DNA of 23,447 bases, taken from a virus. The stretch lies in the IMG/VR virus record IMGVR_UViG_3300025425_002043, positions 1 to 23,447 of that record, one strand, 5' to 3'. Below, one piece after another: positions 4,372 to 22,967 of the stretch (position 1 is the stretch's first letter; every line of letters begins with the position of its first letter). Under the pieces are notes generated by a model, which did not search any database, had not been told where the DNA came from, and saw only the letters and a list, made by a program, of their open reading frames with translations. A program made the translations under genes and the position numbers.

Positions 4372-4461
4372 TCAGCATCTTCTGCACCTCGCAGACTTGT
4401 TTATGTAATCGCCAGTCTTCTTACAGGAGATCAAGTCGCCGGGTAATATGTCGTCGCTCAT
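4372..4461 (-). CDS. 29-residue Cys-containing microprotein
   Basis: A short ORF starts at an ATG at 4461 that overlaps the stop of the PP-loop gene as ATGA, and ends at 4372. It encodes 29 residues with cysteines at 13, 26 and 29, the last two as a terminal CRRC, in a basic context (KSARCRRC). The coupled start, the usual junction style here, is the main support. A C-x-x-C pair could bind a metal or be redox-active, but with three cysteines this is speculation. It directly follows a PAPS-reductase-like protein that itself has a conserved cysteine pair. Confidence 0.45.
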   Translation of the reverse strand: MSDDILPGDLISCKKTGDYINKSARCRRC

Positions 4462-5528
4462 TTCTTCGCTTTGTCCTTCGCTGCTTTGATCTCCATCAGC
4501 TTCTGGTAGCGCTCTCGCACTTCTTTACCGGTGGTGTATTTCACATCCCACCCGTAGAGGTGGCCGACTTTCCGCCGCATCGTTGCTAGCTTCTCCGTCT
4601 CTTCTTCCGTCGGGACGCAGTGAGGCCAGCCTCGTGTGAACTGCAGATGCTTCGGCAGCCATGCTTGGGCCTCTGTCCGCATTGTCTGCAGTTGCTTGGC
4701 ATTCTCCAGGCGTATAGCGCCGTCGGGTATCAGATCGATTCCCAGTGACGTGAGCCATCGACTGCCCTGAAACGCGAAGCCGCTCTTCAGCTCGAGATCA
4801 CACATCTCCGTGTAGATGGCCTGCGCTGCGGGATCTACCAAGCTGGCTCGCAGATCCGCCTCATTGGCGAGAATGCAGAACCGACACGATACGCGCGACG
4901 ACCCGAACCGGGAGTAGGCTTCATGAGCTGTCACACCTGAGTCCTTGATCGCGTCCCACACATCCTGGATAAGCCAGTGATGGATAGGACGCCAGTTCAG
5001 TGACCCGGGCGGTAGCTTCTTCTCGACCGAGACGATCGGTTGCTTGGCTCTCGCACTGCTCTCTTCGCCCCGTACGCCCGTGACGTTGATCATCGGTACG
5101 CGACCGAACCGCTTCTTGAGAGCCGACGTGATCGGGCCGACCTTCAGCTCCGACGTGCAGAACCTCATAGCGGGTGTAGACCACGGCAGCACGACGACCA
5201 CCGTCTCCATCTCGATGTAGCGCCTGATAGACGAAGCCCACCGGGCATTCCACCGATGCATCATGCCTCCGGCTCTCCTCGAGCAGGTGATCAGCTCCCA
5301 GCCGATCTTGTCTGCGATGCGCTGGCATGCTGGGTGGGAGTCTTCCCACTCTACGGATCCAAGATCGCTATGGATCAGGATCTTCGGTCCTTCGTAGTCC
5401 TTGAGCTCCTGGGACAACGCCCAGGCGACGGCGTGGCTGTCTTTTCCGCCGGAAATTCCGCAGCAAACTGGCGCCCTAGCATCAAGCAGGGCCTGAACTT
5501 CTGGTGTGTTATTTATTGATCGACTCAT
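4458..5528 (-). CDS. PAPS reductase / DndC-like PP-loop ATPase family protein
   Basis: This 356-residue protein has the N-type PP-loop SGGKDS (26-31), which binds ATP and adenylates or pyrophosphorylates a substrate. It also has IHSDLGSVEW (52-61), MRFCTSELKVGP (121-132), TGVRGEES (150-157), WRPIHHWLIQDVW (179-191) and a cysteine pair SCRFC (C215, C218). This order is typical of the phosphoadenosine-phosphosulfate reductase family, including DndC-type sulfur-transfer proteins. C124 with C215 and C218 could help hold an Fe-S cluster. The C-terminal 130 residues are long for a plain PAPS reductase. No dndB, dndD or sulfurtransferase gene is nearby, so the substrate is unknown; nucleic-acid modification or sulfur assimilation are possibilities. 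I chose ATG 5528; a TTG at 5540 would add four residues. Confidence 0.8.
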   Translation of the reverse strand: MSRSINNTPEVQALLDARAPVCCGISGGKDSHAVAWALSQELKDYEGPKILIHSDLGSVEWEDSHPACQRIADKIGWELITCSRRAGGMMHRWNARWASSIRRYIEMETVVVVLPWSTPAMRFCTSELKVGPITSALKKRFGRVPMINVTGVRGEESSARAKQPIVSVEKKLPPGSLNWRPIHHWLIQDVWDAIKDSGVTAHEAYSRFGSSRVSCRFCILANEADLRASLVDPAAQAIYTEMCDLELKSGFAFQGSRWLTSLGIDLIPDGAIRLENAKQLQTMRTEAQAWLPKHLQFTRGWPHCVPTEEETEKLATMRRKVGHLYGWDVKYTTGKEVRERYQKLMEIKAAKDKAKK

Positions 5529-5540
5529 AATTTGACACAA

Positions 5541-8976: not shown

Positions 8977-9442
8977 GCCGCGCCTTCCTGTCTCGGCGTG
9001 CTTGGTCGAAGTGTCCCTTCAGATCCGTTCGGATCTCTGATCCAGACCAATCCCTGGGTTTACCCAGCCAAAGATCCTCATCGCAAGCGTCCACACCATC
9101 CGCGTAGCTCTCGGCCTCTTCCTGATCCAGGATCGACCCCTCGAGGCCCATCCGGGTTAGGAACAGCACGACGTATTTGAGATGTCGCTTCCCGAACTGA
9201 GCGTTCTTGGTCGTCTCAAAGAAGTCGATCGCATGCCCCTGCTTCGCAAACCCGAGGCAGGCTCGTCGCACCAACTTCAGCCAAGTGAACTGCTCGGCGT
9301 GAGCGTTAAAGTCCATGACCACCACCTGCTTCTGAATCGCTTGGGCGAAGAACGGACCGTCGTCCTCTAAGGCTTTGTTGGCGCGACGCAGGCGCTTCTC
9401 GGTCGCCCGGGACGCCCGCCACTGCTTGAATCGCTCACGCAT
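8954..9442 (-). CDS. Hypothetical protein
   Basis: This encodes a 162-residue charged helical protein. The N-terminus is very basic (MRERFKQWRASRATEKRLRR), followed by a mixed central domain and an acidic stretch, DQEEAESYADGVDACDEDLW. The C-terminus is again basic (ARRDRKARLENVYRE). It overlaps the thymidylate kinase stop by eight bases and the methylase fragment by 23 bases. AGGAC directly precedes the ATG. I do not recognise the family; it does not resemble the missing half of the methylase. Confidence 0.6.
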   Translation of the reverse strand: MRERFKQWRASRATEKRLRRANKALEDDGPFFAQAIQKQVVVMDFNAHAEQFTWLKLVRRACLGFAKQGHAIDFFETTKNAQFGKRHLKYVVLFLTRMGLEGSILDQEEAESYADGVDACDEDLWLGKPRDWSGSEIRTDLKGHFDQARRDRKARLENVYRE

Positions 9443-10379
9443 GTCCTGGTTTAAGGAGCTCCATTATGGTTTGGGTCACGCTCTGCACGACCTCCTCCGG
9501 AGTCATGTTGGTCGTATCCTCGCGGATTACCGGCTCGTTACCTTGGACGAGGCTGAGTGCGTTCCCGTAGCCCGTGTGTATAGCCTTCTGGAATGTGTCG
9601 TCGTCGAACCGCTCTTGGCTCACTATGTCGACTGCCTCATCCTCTTGGCCTGTTTTGATTACCCTCCACTGGGTGAAGATATTCAGTGCTCCATTGTCGT
9701 CGCACCTAATATGAGCTTGAATATACCGTAGGTTCATCGGTGTTGGTTTCTTATCCAACTTCGCTAAAGCGGTCTCGACCCCATTAACCTTGGCATGCGC
9801 CAGCAGCTCCTTAATGTAATCCTCATCATCGCCGAGAATAGTCTTCAGGAGATTAGCATCACCCGCCCGGGCAGCTGCGACGATATCCATCACGGTCTCC
9901 CGCGGTGTGAAGTATTCATCCCACCGGGATGATAGCCGGCGCTTCCTCAAGACTTCGTAGTCGGCTGTGAGGACCACGTAGACGCTGGGTATCACGGCCT
10001 CGGTGATCTCGATCAGCTTCCTGTATTCAGCCCACTTGTTGCGGCGCGCCAGCACTTGGTAGACGATGGTTGACATTGTGTAGCGATCGCAGAGGACAGC
10101 CTTCCCAGCTTGTAATGCCGGGATGATTGTCTCTTCCGCCATCTGGGCTCGGCACGACAAGAATAGCAGTAACTGCGCCGTCGCCGTCATTGGTATCTTA
10201 CCGCCCTTTAGCACCGGACGGAGCGCTTCACCCAACTGCGAGGCTCCAGGGTCGCGAATAACCACGATGTCCTGCTCTTTGTAGCCGCGCTTCCGTAGCT
10301 CTTGGGCCACGCCCTTCATGGTGGAGGTCTTCCCCACGCCGTCCGGCCCTTCGAAGGCGATAAACATTGCTTTGCTCAT
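9435..10379 (-). CDS. tmk: Thymidylate kinase with a large insertion
   Basis: Thymidylate kinase phosphorylates dTMP to dTDP with ATP, feeding phage DNA synthesis. This 314-residue protein shows FEGPDGVGKT (P-loop at 11-18), IRDPGASQLGEALR (41-54, the usual REPGGT...GE segment), DRY (98-100) with the following STIVYQ, and VYVVLTADYEVLRKRR (133-148). After that, SRWDEYF at 151-157 reads as the start of the LID. Roughly 100 extra residues follow before ERFDDDTFQKAIHTGYGNAL (256-275), which resembles the family's normal helix after the LID; MTPEEVVQSV ends it as usual. Typical enzymes have about 210 residues. ATG 10379 has GGAAG seven to eight bases upstream and overlaps the upstream stop as ATGA; a TTG at 10391 is less likely. 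Confidence 0.85.
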   Translation of the reverse strand: MSKAMFIAFEGPDGVGKTSTMKGVAQELRKRGYKEQDIVVIRDPGASQLGEALRPVLKGGKIPMTATAQLLLFLSCRAQMAEETIIPALQAGKAVLCDRYTMSTIVYQVLARRNKWAEYRKLIEITEAVIPSVYVVLTADYEVLRKRRLSSRWDEYFTPRETVMDIVAAARAGDANLLKTILGDDEDYIKELLAHAKVNGVETALAKLDKKPTPMNLRYIQAHIRCDDNGALNIFTQWRVIKTGQEDEAVDIVSQERFDDDTFQKAIHTGYGNALSLVQGNEPVIREDTTNMTPEEVVQSVTQTIMELLKPGHA

Positions 10380-10897
10380 AATTTCTTCCAATAGACGGGA
10401 GTGCCCCCGCCGGCATTTGCTGGTTTCATGTTTTTCTCGTAGTAGTCGATCGATAGAATGACTTGGTCAGTTGTACCTTTTGATTGGCTGTCTTTCACAG
10501 TCTCCGTCAGCTTCGCAATCACCGCGTCCCACTCATAGACTATGAATGGGGGATTCCTGTAACCTCGGAAGCCCTGCCCGGCGATACACGCATGCATCAT
10601 CTCCCAGGCCATCATCCGTCCGGATGTCACCCGCTCCCAGAAGATCGTCTTTGCCGGCGGTAACATCACCACAGGCAGGTCCGGACCTTGCTGAAACATC
10701 ATGGGTGTGATCTTTCGAAACACTTCCCGAGGCGAGGTCTGATCAAGGAGGTGTAGCGCTACGGCTACCCAGTCATACAAAGGCACCTGCCCTGAGTAAT
10801 CTTCAGCCACGCCCACGAGACCTACATCCGCAAAGGAGGGAAGCCAAAGGGGGCGGACGTCGGGGTATTTCTCGGTTACAGCTTCTCGAAGATCCAT
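10376..10897 (-). CDS. Hypothetical protein
   Basis: This encodes a 173-residue soluble protein beginning MDLREAVTEKYPDVRPLWLP. The middle is Pro- and Met-rich (RKITPMMFQQGPDLPVVMLPP at about 61-81) and is followed by a helix-rich part and GGGTPVYWKKL at the end. I see no known motif. The ATG shares one base with the stop of the upstream gene (TGATG at 10895-10899), and the stop overlaps the kinase start. Its position just before thymidylate kinase does not by itself say what it does. Confidence 0.65.
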   Translation of the reverse strand: MDLREAVTEKYPDVRPLWLPSFADVGLVGVAEDYSGQVPLYDWVAVALHLLDQTSPREVFRKITPMMFQQGPDLPVVMLPPAKTIFWERVTSGRMMAWEMMHACIAGQGFRGYRNPPFIVYEWDAVIAKLTETVKDSQSKGTTDQVILSIDYYEKNMKPANAGGGTPVYWKKL

Positions 10898-15990: not shown

Positions 15991-18768
15991 TTACATCTGA
16001 CCTTCAGCCACCATCTGCCTTCCGGCCGACTCTCCTTGGCTTCGACGATCCTCCAATTTCTGGCTGACCATCGCATGCATTTGTGGGTCGGTCTGCTTGA
16101 GCTGCATGAGAGCTTTACTCCGCTCCCCCTGATAAGGCATAGCGAGAAGTTCCTCGGCCTTGGCCTCCGCCTGGTCCATGACATCCAGCGGCGTCATACC
16201 ACCGCCCCCGCCGGGACCTCCTCCAGCCGCCCCTTCTCCTTGGGCGATGTGGTCGTTCATAGAGCCGATCATCTGCTCTCGCTCCAGTTCCTGCTGAATC
16301 TTCACCGTGCCTCGTTGAATGTCGGCCTCTTCGCGCTGAGCTTTGAGAGCCTCCTCCACAGCATCTTTGATGCCCCAACCTTTGAAGCCCGTCTCCTTAG
16401 AGACTTGACCGCCGGCGACCATCTGAAGCATCACGTGTCGCTTCTCGATGTCGTCGGCCATGCGTGGCGACTCCATGCTTGGATTCAACGCCCCCATGCC
16501 CAGGTAATTCCTGACCTTAAGAGTGAACCATTTGAGGAGGTTGTTGTTGTTCGTCGGGAGAAACTGAAAAGTATTTTCGAAGATACGAAGCGCTGCCGGC
16601 ATCTGCTCGATCGCTAATGAACCGTGAAAAAGCTCCGCCGGGTAACCCATACCATCCATAAGGTGATCGGTGTGCCATGCGACGTTATCCTTTGATACCA
16701 GCTGGTGTCCATCGGCTCCAAACTCCATCATCTGGGTCGGGAATGGCATCGCATACATTTTGAACGGATCCACTCGACGCTGCTTGATCATCTGATCCGT
16801 GTGCGCTTTCCATTCATTCAACCCGGTTCGGTTCGTCTGCGTGTTCCAGTTGGCGTCCGATACGTTCGGCGTAAAGAGTCGAAAAGGTAAGACGTAGTCC
16901 ATACCCACCACTTCGTCGATTCGCCGATACACCTGCAGACGGTGAAGGTTTCGATAGTTCGCAAGAACCTCGGGTACGCCCCATCCAAAGTTGGACAGGC
17001 CTGAGATAGTCGGAGCCTTCATGTGAAATACCTCACCCTCCTCAAACCGGTAATCCTGCTGTTTCGAGATCGCTTCCAGCACCTCGAGGGGTGTGTCGTT
17101 CACTTGGTAGATCACTCCGCTACGGATCTGACTCAGAAGTTCAGGCTCAATCTCCCACACGACCCGGAACCGGCCTGACATAAAACTGGACTGCAGCACA
17201 ACACGTCGCGGGTCTAGGCGCTTAAGCTTGATCTGCGTCCAGTCCGAGGATTGTCGATCGCAGAAAGGAAGGTCGACGGTCCTCGCTCCGGTTCCACCCT
17301 TGTCGAAGTCGCGAGGATCCCGGACCGTGTACGTGAGATTCTCCCAGTTGTATGTGATACCTTCTGGAAAGTTTTCGAAGTGTGAAAGCGCATGCTCCAC
17401 GCGAGAACCACTCCGGGTATCGTAAAGGATGCGTCGAAAGGGGAAGTAGATGTGCCCAAACGAATTTCCATAGCAGTTACCTGTAAGTATCCCATTACCG
17501 ATTACGAAGGTGTGCGTCGCCATCTCCTCGCAGCAGAATACCTCTTCTTTGCGGTTAGTTGGATGCACGGCCTTGATGCCTGTGAATCGCCCGTAATTCG
17601 ATTTCGGATTGAAGTGCTTATCGAAATTAGATCGGTGCTGTGGGATTAGAAAATCCTCGGGCTGCATGAATCGCTTCTGCAGCCCCATAAAATGGATTGT
17701 GGAGTCGTAGACTGCGTCTGGTCCGGACCACTTCGTCAGATCTACGCGCCGCCGCTGTGATCGTATAGGTCCTGCCACCATGCCGAGGCGGGGCAATTGA
17801 TCCTCGATAGCCTGAAGAGTTTTCGCATCCTTCTGGGTTAGGACAGGACAGCCATGAACGTCGACCGACCCGTCAGCGGCCAAGAATCCCGCCACGAATC
17901 CATACCAGTATGAAGAGCTCAAGTCGGCAGCAGGAAGATCTTTGTATTCCGTGGGGAATCCGTGCTTCCTCCAGTAACCTGGCTTGTCCGATCGCTCTAT
18001 AGCGGGGTGCCCATGCCCGCGGAAGTGCTCACGCATATGAGAATCCTTCTCACCTACGAAAAGCGCTGTGGTGCCTTTACCGCGACAGGAGATAGAACCG
18101 TCGCCGTAAATAAAACCATGACGAACACCGTGCTCGTAGTCCTCGTCCTTCGCTGGTCGCTCGGCCACGGTCCGTTCAATCCTATGAGTTCCTGGACAGA
18201 GTTCGTCTGTCCTGACCCGCACCTCTTTTCCTACACCATTCTTAACGACCCACTGATGCTCTGGCGTTGCGCATATCCGACGTCCGTCCGGGAACTCGAC
18301 TTCCATCAGATTCTGCTCGCCGTAAGACTTGAAAGTAGCTTCTCGGTAGACACCTCCCTGCGACAATACATCAACCGTCTTGCCCTTCAGCTCCCGGATA
18401 GGGAAGACTCCGTTCCTAGTGGTGACTTTGGTGTCTCCGGCGAAGCAAGACCAATCATCCCCCATCTCTCCGAGGAAACCTTTTATGTTAACCTCCTCGT
18501 TGATGTAGTCGCGCCAAGTGTCCTGCTCTACCTTGTCTCCCTTTGAACCATCAAAAGTGATATCTGTGATGAAATGACCGACAACCCGCTTAGAGGTCTG
18601 CCGGTAGATTGGATTCATCCAGTATAGAAACTGGCAAAAATCCATCCCACCCTCGAAATCGGTTGGGAAGCTCTCGCTGCTGGGGAGTAAAAACGGATCT
18701 GCAAACTCGGAGGCGCTTGTGGTGCCCCCGTGAATGTCAGACATCCGCGAGGGGATCATCTGATTCAT
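15991..18768 (-). CDS. Portal-like protein precursor interrupted by an intein
   Basis: The 925-residue precursor should splice to 601 residues (1-107 joined to 432-925). Portal proteins form the dodecameric ring through which DNA enters the head. Supporting features: an N-terminal part with MDFCQFLYWMNPIYRQTSKR, a junction giving DDWS followed by CYGNSFGHIYFPF (the conserved 'YGNSF' strand of portals), DWTQIKLKRLDPRRVVL, and FHMKAPTISGLSNFGWGVPE. A long helix YRNLHRLQVYRRIDEVVGMD and a Gly/Pro-rich, Gln-rich C-terminus (GGGPGGGGG) follow. The portal assignment is by recognition and context, not proven. ATGs at 18768, 18759 and 18744 are all possible starts; none has a Shine-Dalgarno. It overlaps the 65-residue gene upstream. 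Confidence 0.62.
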   Translation of the reverse strand: MNQMIPSRMSDIHGGTTSASEFADPFLLPSSESFPTDFEGGMDFCQFLYWMNPIYRQTSKRVVGHFITDITFDGSKGDKVEQDTWRDYINEEVNIKGFLGEMGDDWSCFAGDTKVTTRNGVFPIRELKGKTVDVLSQGGVYREATFKSYGEQNLMEVEFPDGRRICATPEHQWVVKNGVGKEVRVRTDELCPGTHRIERTVAERPAKDEDYEHGVRHGFIYGDGSISCRGKGTTALFVGEKDSHMREHFRGHGHPAIERSDKPGYWRKHGFPTEYKDLPAADLSSSYWYGFVAGFLAADGSVDVHGCPVLTQKDAKTLQAIEDQLPRLGMVAGPIRSQRRRVDLTKWSGPDAVYDSTIHFMGLQKRFMQPEDFLIPQHRSNFDKHFNPKSNYGRFTGIKAVHPTNRKEEVFCCEEMATHTFVIGNGILTGNCYGNSFGHIYFPFRRILYDTRSGSRVEHALSHFENFPEGITYNWENLTYTVRDPRDFDKGGTGARTVDLPFCDRQSSDWTQIKLKRLDPRRVVLQSSFMSGRFRVVWEIEPELLSQIRSGVIYQVNDTPLEVLEAISKQQDYRFEEGEVFHMKAPTISGLSNFGWGVPEVLANYRNLHRLQVYRRIDEVVGMDYVLPFRLFTPNVSDANWNTQTNRTGLNEWKAHTDQMIKQRRVDPFKMYAMPFPTQMMEFGADGHQLVSKDNVAWHTDHLMDGMGYPAELFHGSLAIEQMPAALRIFENTFQFLPTNNNNLLKWFTLKVRNYLGMGALNPSMESPRMADDIEKRHVMLQMVAGGQVSKETGFKGWGIKDAVEEALKAQREEADIQRGTVKIQQELEREQMIGSMNDHIAQGEGAAGGGPGGGGGMTPLDVMDQAEAKAEELLAMPYQGERSKALMQLKQTDPQMHAMVSQKLEDRRSQGESAGRQMVAEGQM
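17476..18447 (-). mobile_element. Intein with LAGLIDADG endonuclease, in the portal gene
   Basis: The 324-residue intein starts at Cys108 of the precursor (CFAGDTKVTTRNG, block A) and ends at Asn431, followed by Cys432 as the +1 nucleophile. Block B is ATPEHQW at intein residues 60-66. Two LAGLIDADG-type motifs lie at 110-119 (HGFIYGDGSI) and 182-194 (YGFVAGFLAADGS), so a homing endonuclease is embedded. The C-terminal blocks read HTFVIGNGIL then TGN. The penultimate residue is Gly, not the usual His, which some active inteins tolerate. Removing it restores an uninterrupted portal-like sequence. All residues expected for Cys-type splicing are otherwise present. Confidence 0.88.
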
Positions 18769-21287: not shown

Positions 21288-22967
21288 CTAATCAGGAATC
21301 TTGACGACTTTTCCCGACAACTGCACGGGAGACAGCCAATGCTCTTTTCCTGTCTTACGGTTGCGAAACTTCTGATAGACGTTGCCGTCATCCCCTATAC
21401 GGACGCCGGTTGAGAGCCTGGAGTCGACACCAATTCTTTCCGAATTCCCGGTCCAATGCCCATAACCCGAACCACGCCGAATGAAGATAAGACCTCCCTC
21501 TACCGTAACACAAAACACATCATCATCGTAAGGTTGACGATACCAGGCGTCCTGATTATAGGCGGTGCGTGTCTGCCGCTCCCGGTTTTTAAAGATCGAT
21601 ACCACCCAATTTGTCGATTTGACATGCTCCCGACTGTCAGGTTCCTCGCGGAACGAAGTGGATATACCCAGAGAAATCATAAGACGTTCAGCACCTCTCG
21701 CGAATGCCTTGCTCGTGGATACGAATGAGCGGTGCGTCTTGTTAATTCGCCTATCCGTCTCCATGAGCGCCTGCAAGAACGCCTCTCTAACCTTGATAGG
21801 CTGCGTAAGGACGTATTCTGGAATAAACTTATCTCCGGCTTTACCGAACTGGCTAAGATACTCCCCTAACCCTTTGTGATTTATGTAAAAATCGCCTTTA
21901 GTTCCCGGGTCTGGCCCGTAGCGAGGTCGGTATTCCCAAGTCAGCCCGGAGGCTTTTAGCGCCTCGCATATACCGGGATAAGCTGGGCGGTCGCTGCTGT
22001 GTGTGATGACCGCTCCGTAGGGAGTGCGGTAGCCGTCCGCCAACCAGTAAGCCAGGAGCTTACACCAAATCAGCATAGGGATGGATAATCCAGAGACTTC
22101 TGAAAATGGCGAGGTGCTTGGATATTCGATTGGTGCGTGGCCCGTATCGATGTTGATGCGCTTGTCGAATAAATCCTCAGCGAATCCCATCTGGAATTGA
22201 CGCCCCGCCCTATTCCGTTTGTCTGTGTCCCTATACCAAATCCTATGGTTTGGGGTTACCAGGAAATCCACATAAAGCGAAGTAACCCCGATCAAATCTC
22301 CCTGGAAAGGGTAACGGTGCACTTTGGTTGGATGTCTGAACGCCAGCGTCCCTTTGATATTACAAGCCACCTCGTGCTCCATCGTCACTTCAGGCGCTGG
22401 TATCCAACCGACACTTGTAAAAATTTTACTGTCCCTTGAGAGCGACTCTGGCCCCTCGAGAGGCGACTTAAATCCGAACTGCCCTGGTTCTACGTTTTGC
22501 ATGCCCTGGGTTATCGCATTGTCCGATCCGATACCGCCGGGCCCCATCTGCGTGACACGTCTGGATTGATCTACACCATGCAGAGGATTGATCTCCTCGA
22601 TCGGGGCTGAGAGAGGATTACCCACCAGGTGTCCGACCATCATGTCATCGAAAGCGAAAGGGGACACGCCTGCCAGGGAGCCTTTCTTGGAGGCATTGCG
22701 AATCGCTTTCCTCACCAACTTGTTCCGATCCATCTTGACTCGTTCCTTGAGAAGAGCTGGTGTGTCATAAACCCGCTTGAACTCCTGCGCATCTCGAGAG
22801 TCGACTGGGACCATCCCTCGGTTTACCGCCAAAAGTTTCTCAGTGGATGCGAGAATACCATCTAATCCGAGAGGGATATACTCCCCTGTGTTATTGGACT
22901 TCTCAGAAACCTTTAAGTCTCCGACTGATGCGCGGAGAGCCTCCTTTACCTGGCTGAATTTATCCAT
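21288..22967 (-). CDS. RNA polymerase beta-subunit fragment interrupted by an intein
   Basis: The 559-residue precursor should splice to 225 residues (1-174 plus 509-559). The extein follows the fork region of bacterial RpoB in order: PVDSRDAQEFKRVYDTPALL (54-73, like 'DDIDHLGNRRVRSVGELL'), a helix of basic residues, NPLHGVDQSRRVTQMGPGGI (127-146, like 'NPL..LTHKRRLSALGPGGL'). Then SPLEGPE (168-174) and, after splicing, SERIGVDSRL, aligning with 'CPIETPEGPNIGLI'. The end WLSPVQLSGKVVKIPD fits 'YLSA..EG.YVIAQAN'. So it is a piece of a multisubunit RNA polymerase, as encoded in pieces by some giant phages. No other beta or beta' piece is visible here. ATG 22967 has no Shine-Dalgarno. Confidence 0.75.
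   Translation of the reverse strand: MDKFSQVKEALRASVGDLKVSEKSNNTGEYIPLGLDGILASTEKLLAVNRGMVPVDSRDAQEFKRVYDTPALLKERVKMDRNKLVRKAIRNASKKGSLAGVSPFAFDDMMVGHLVGNPLSAPIEEINPLHGVDQSRRVTQMGPGGIGSDNAITQGMQNVEPGQFGFKSPLEGPESLSRDSKIFTSVGWIPAPEVTMEHEVACNIKGTLAFRHPTKVHRYPFQGDLIGVTSLYVDFLVTPNHRIWYRDTDKRNRAGRQFQMGFAEDLFDKRINIDTGHAPIEYPSTSPFSEVSGLSIPMLIWCKLLAYWLADGYRTPYGAVITHSSDRPAYPGICEALKASGLTWEYRPRYGPDPGTKGDFYINHKGLGEYLSQFGKAGDKFIPEYVLTQPIKVREAFLQALMETDRRINKTHRSFVSTSKAFARGAERLMISLGISTSFREEPDSREHVKSTNWVVSIFKNRERQTRTAYNQDAWYRQPYDDDVFCVTVEGGLIFIRRGSGYGHWTGNSERIGVDSRLSTGVRIGDDGNVYQKFRNRKTGKEHWLSPVQLSGKVVKIPD
21444..22445 (-). mobile_element. Serine-type intein with LAGLIDADG-like domain, in the RNA polymerase fragment
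   Basis: The 334-residue intein starts at Ser175 of the precursor (SLSRDSKIFTSVGW, block A, with Ser in place of the usual Cys) and ends at Asn508, followed by Ser509. Block B is VTPNHRI, with Thr at intein residue 64 and His at 67. LAGLIDADG motif 1 is clear at 130-139 (LLAYWLADGY); motif 2 is degenerate but keeps its Asp (FLQALMETDR, 223-232). The end reads FCVTVEGGLIFIRR then GHWTGN. The penultimate residue is Gly rather than His. Excision joins SPLEGPE to SERIGVD, restoring an RpoB-like ETPEG region. An intein here is strongly supported by the restored extein. Confidence 0.85.

Follow-up and report, generated by a model that had tools for sequence, protein, structure and literature searches.

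The predicted portal gene of an uncultured phage carries a full-length LAGLIDADG intein. We consider it very likely (probability of roughly 0.9) that this is a mobile element which a lineage of tailed phages carries at one constant position in the portal gene and that it excises after translation, a reading drawn from sequence comparison and structural models. The window, by which we mean the whole 23,447-nt stretch of DNA that was analyzed, is a complete IMG/VR virus entry and probably a fragment.

An intein in a portal gene

The element occupies residues 108-431 of the precursor, exactly 324 codons in frame (18447 down to 17476), and its removal leaves an extein of 601 residues (Table 1). 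The first-pass annotation had placed an insert at 17476-18447 between DDWS and CYGNSF, and both its coordinates and its junction are correct.

Table 1. Features of the intein-bearing open reading frames in the window
Feature	Position	Strand	Details
Portal precursor ORF	15991..18768	-	Single open frame, 925 aa, extein plus intein
N-extein	18448..18768	-	107 aa, last residues ...GEMGDDWS; aligned with intein-free portals
Intein	17476..18447	-	324 aa, CFAGDTK...ILTGN
Cys1 of intein	18445..18447	-	Class 1 nucleophile position; 26/26 family members
Block B His64-Gln65-Trp66	18250..18258	-	B:10 His and B:12 Trp of the WCT triad; His64 and Trp66 each 26/26
First DOD motif, GVRHGFIYGDG	18097..18129	-	Intein residues 107-117
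Second DOD motif, GFVAGFLAADG	17869..17901	-	Intein residues 183-193
Block F Cys305-Cys306	17530..17535	-	Cys305 = F:4, class 3 nucleophile position; both 26/26
Block G end Thr322-Gly323-Asn324	17476..17484	-	Thr322 = G:5 of the WCT triad; Asn324 for cyclization
Cys+1	17473..17475	-	C-extein residue one; Cys in 15/15 intein-bearing portals tabulated
C-extein	15991..17475	-	494 aa plus stop, first residues CYGNSF; aligned with intein-free portals
Second intein	21444..22445	-	334 aa, Ser1 type, inside RNA polymerase beta-like ORF 21288-22967

Profiles, residues, and predicted fold agree on the nature of the insert. NCBIfam TIGR01445 (intein_Nterm) matched it at 30.4 bits (curated cut-off 24.5) and Pfam LAGLIDADG_3 at 22.7 bits, just over the cut-off of 22.5; Pfam Intein_splicing gave 1.5e-6, but its 28.5 bits fell below the gathering score of 35.8. 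Blocks A, B, F, and G are complete, the splicing residues Cys1, block B His64, Asn324, and Cys+1 are all found, and each DOD motif keeps its aspartate (Asp116 and Asp192). An AlphaFold model of the intein, built from 26 family members, reached a pLDDT of 94.9, and structure comparison aligned 302 of its residues with the intein endonuclease PI-PfuI (Z 25.0, rmsd 3.3). The full-length alignment extended to other endonuclease inteins, with the LAGLIDADG fold recovered, and numerous HINT domains matched at Z 16-19. A phmmer search of PDB sequences returned weak matches only, and the relationship was found by structure comparison and profile search. Chance resemblance is ruled out because intein-free relatives lack precisely the 324-aa segment. 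On these profiles and this model, the insert is confirmed as a LAGLIDADG intein, bearing out the earlier description of a full-size element with Cys1, a block B His, two DOD motifs, and an Asn-Cys end. Its DOD domain is probably a LAGLIDADG homing endonuclease.

The identification of the host gene rests on homologues and fold because the spliced extein is too distant from curated portal models; searched directly against Pfam and PHROGs, it matched no portal model. Only four cultured phages gave matches to the joined 601 residues: Salmonella phage Arash, in which the gene is annotated as a portal (4e-31, 98% coverage), and three Vibrio phages. The alignment continues unbroken across the junction in the homologous portals of Arash (gp204) and Vibrio phage D69 (VPHD69_0259), which differ from the window portal in being intein-free and thus present a natural empty site (FDYH/AYGNSF in D69). 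Homologues of the extein in IMG/VR match the PHROG portal families phrog_2739, phrog_64, and phrog_16240.

A model of the whole precursor, of modest confidence (pLDDT 75.7, pTM 0.43), found the portals of phiXa, T4, and E217 in Foldseek (E 5e-5 to 4e-4) and those of Pa193 (Z 14.3), E217 (Z 13.9), and G20C (Z 13.6) by structure comparison, with the lambda portal and others also among the fold matches. In a BFVD fold search with the precursor, matches of the intein portion to RNR and terminase proteins prevailed, which left the search uninformative on the portal. Comparison of the spliced 601 residues with portal families had been proposed earlier as a check; through Arash, the PHROG families of the homologues, and the portal folds, it supports assignment of the host gene as a phage portal.

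In D69, the gene immediately upstream of the intein-free portal (L002:7384-7983) is annotated as a free-standing homing endonuclease and looks HNH-like by eye.

Distribution, divergence, and probable mobility

The insertion site is both empty and occupied among relatives of the window phage. Of the 33 portal loci that a profile scan recovered from IMG/VR, 31 are without the insert, and an intein-profile scan found the portal CYGN site occupied in 16 distinct phage contigs, window included; the C-extein begins C[YF]GN in all 16. The idea that the intein is unique to the window contig was therefore rejected. Empty sites in L007 and L009-L011 read EWA/CYGNAF, and L016 and L017 carry a 963 nt intein at that point; the exteins of L016 (intein-bearing) and L009 (empty) are 96% identical. 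On the portal tree the intein is scattered, with at least 6-7 gains or losses. Both DOD aspartates are retained in most copies of the intein family, whereas neither remains in L063 or L065, and in L050 each is replaced by Asn. Given these degenerate copies, the precise empty sites, and the intact copies, full, decaying, and empty alleles coexist. Together with the scatter, this pattern in the sequences is what would be expected of a homing cycle and fits a selfish element. The conserved portal YGN motif is thus a recurrent intein target across a broad group of uncultured phages, and all three kinds of allele of one intein are available for study of the homing cycle. A scan of genome contigs for the intein gave just two loci, one of them an RNR intein in a Cyclobacteriaceae MAG, with no clear host signal.

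The intein family extends to other genes, namely ribonucleotide reductase (RNR) genes and a primase-helicase-like gene (matches to PF19263 DUF5906 and AAA). In the intein tree, a branch with support of 87/98 separates the 16 portal inteins from those in RNR and primase genes. The closest cultured-phage intein is that in the RNR of Thermobifida phage P318 (38-41% identity over the full length). The inteins in P318 and related phage RNRs share Cys1, the WCT triad, and an EEVFCC block F with the window intein; the P318 element differs in its host gene, in ending with Gln, and in its insertion context.

When the window is compared with its nearest intein relatives, the inteins (55-59% amino acid identity) are more similar than the portals (41-45%). 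In the close pairs L016/L017 and L041/L042, however, the intein shows no higher conservation than the extein, and recent homing is not visible there. Because these pairs show the reverse order of conservation, transfer of the intein between phages is only suggested by the sequence comparison.

Several other inteins were seen during these scans. In L060, L062, L064, and L066, a family intein sits in a large primase-helicase-like protein (DUF5906, AAA) at ...DPGKPN/CF or similar. In L067:3449-5900, the RNR downstream of the family intein apparently has a further intein (Pfam Intein_splicing 8.6e-17). The portal ORF at L053:2156-5953 is doubly interrupted, by an intein at the CYGN site and by another, 427 aa long, at a different portal position; the latter starts CVTPDSFVETING and ends ATHN/SDNNYIP.

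In the mechanism that we propose, the 925-aa precursor would be translated, the intein would excise, and DDWS would be joined to CYGNSF to give the 601-aa portal. Either Cys1, as in class 1, or Cys305 of block F, as in class 3, would make the initial attack, the sequence alone being compatible with both; in the final steps, Cys+1 would serve as acceptor and Asn324 would cyclize. Portal alleles that lack the intein are probably cleaved at the insertion site by its central DOD domain, and such cleavage would lead to copying of the intein between phages that co-infect one cell (homing). Splicing would be needed before portal assembly, and it is a reasonable inference that an unspliced portal could not assemble.

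Two other readings of the insert deserve consideration. It might be an internal domain that does not splice, or an intein that has broken down, with the portal functioning around it, as the absence of the usual penultimate His (Gly in the window intein) could indicate. A mycobacteriophage intein that also has penultimate Gly (Bethlehem RDF) splices, and changing this Gly to His worsens splicing (Kelley et al., PMC5050341). Conservation weighs against a non-splicing insert in three respects. The catalytic positions are all kept across family inteins 29-59% identical to that of the window, and residue +1 is Cys in every intein-bearing row tabulated, although it is Cys, Ala, Val, Ile, or Thr in the intein-free rows. 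In addition, non-synonymous change is about 1/10 of synonymous change in two close comparisons, from an analysis usable for few pairs, synonymous sites being saturated in most. We regard such an insert as exceedingly unlikely.

It is very unlikely, too, that the insert is a domesticated regulator whose conditional splicing, for example under redox control via Cys1, Cys305, and Cys306, times head assembly. The vicinal Cys305-Cys306 pair is indeed invariant, and a mycobacterial DnaB intein is reported as an oxidative stress sensor (PMC6195587). The same Cys pair is found in the RNR and primase inteins, however, and is therefore not specific to portals; the element is sporadic among close relatives, and most copies retain both DOD aspartates, as expected for a selfish mobile element. 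The first-pass annotation had stated that splicing would control head assembly. As a claim of regulation this is not supported and remains conjecture, since the patchy occurrence, the exact empty sites, and the endonuclease decay seen in some copies fit a selfish element.

Splicing chemistry: class 1 or class 3

What defines a class 3 intein is the WCT triad of Trp B:12, Cys F:4, and Thr G:5 (PMC3196547, PMC5050341), usually together with the absence of a nucleophile at position 1 (PMC7891396, PMC7664689). With block B positions B:10 and B:12 taken as defined in PMC3196547, the window intein has the whole triad as Trp66, Cys305, and Thr322, a feature that had been overlooked in the first-pass annotation. 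Within the family, Trp66 and Cys305 are each conserved in 26/26 members and Thr322 in 23/26. Cys1 is likewise present in all 26, at the position where class 3 inteins usually lack a nucleophile, and for this reason we do not file the window intein as class 3, though it may act like one.

Known class 3 inteins (mycobacteriophage Bethlehem; M. smegmatis and M. chimaera DnaB; PMC7664689, PMC7891396, PMC3196547) thus have Trp B:12, Cys F:4, and Thr G:5 in common with the window intein and a HINT fold similar to its model (6bs8, a class 3 DnaB intein, Z 18.9), and the window intein differs from them in its additional, invariant Cys1. RNR inteins of cultured phages such as ICP1 combine Cys1 with Cys F:4, mostly with Phe at B:12. 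Tori and Perler (2011) reportedly called cases of this kind mixtures, and the Catera Gp206 intein, with Ser1 and WCT, is reportedly a class 3 intein in which Ser1 is dispensable.

That precedent is one reason to take seriously that the same intein starts splicing at block F Cys305, with Cys1 dispensable, a proposal about mechanism that leaves the identity of the element as it is. The triad is kept throughout most of the family, and Ser1 is combined with WCT in the other intein of the window phage. The invariance of Cys1 suggests its continued use, class 3 inteins usually have no nucleophile at position 1, and the motif match comes from alignment and not from a solved structure. We put initiation at Cys305 at somewhat short of even odds.

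A more elaborate proposal places the family between class 1 and class 3, with Cys1 and the block F Cys both working as nucleophiles and with splicing that oxidation of the neighboring Cys residues, for example, could hold back, so that portal rings, and with them heads, form only under suitable conditions; taken as a whole, this is very unlikely. A family that combines Cys1 with the class 3 triad makes the origin of class 3 splicing testable.

Portal inteins in other phages and a second intein in the window

Cluster C1 mycobacteriophages are already on record as carrying portal (PORT) inteins (PMC5050341, Table 1, n=6). Comparing the portals of Colt, ET08, and Rahel with the intein-free portal of Alice, we located the C1 sites after Alice residue 115 (Rahel) and after residue 504 (Colt and ET08). 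The C-terminal site was placed relative to the window site by the hhalign register, in which the portal profile aligned with the C-terminal part only of the Alice portal (E 0.00096), and the N-terminal one was placed by eye. The C1 inteins resemble that of the window in three ways: large tailed phages carry them in the portal gene, their presence among relatives is sporadic, and they start with Cys. They differ in occupying two other portal positions (between Alice residues 115 and 116 and between 504 and 505) and in lacking Cys at F:4, and Colt has Thr at +1.

A tblastn search with the window intein did not recover the C1 PORT inteins, and a literature phrase search for a portal intein found no mention. 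The window element is a new portal insertion site and a new lineage, inteins in portals being already known from the C1 mycobacteriophages. It was therefore fair to call a portal intein less usual, and such an intein is not unprecedented, given the C1 cases and the same site in 16 uncultured contigs.

A further intein on the fragment had been overlooked in the first-pass annotation (Table 1, last row). It interrupts SPLEGPE/SERIGVD and has its own LAGLIDADG match and WCT residues. The product of its host ORF is a partial RNA polymerase beta-like protein (match to RNA_pol_Rpb2_3 at E 0.0027, below the gathering score); in Arash, the portal gene lies two genes upstream of the annotated RNA polymerase beta gene. 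The SPLEGPE/SERIGVD site is occupied in L004, L016, L020, and L024-L027 and empty in L008-L010, L021-L023, L028, and L044. L027 carries this intein and the apparently very similar L022, L023, and L028 do not, possibly a recent gain or loss. Elsewhere in the window, on the minus strand, lie auxiliary genes for phosphoadenosine phosphosulfate reductase-like and thymidylate kinase-like proteins (4458-5540 and 9435-10391).
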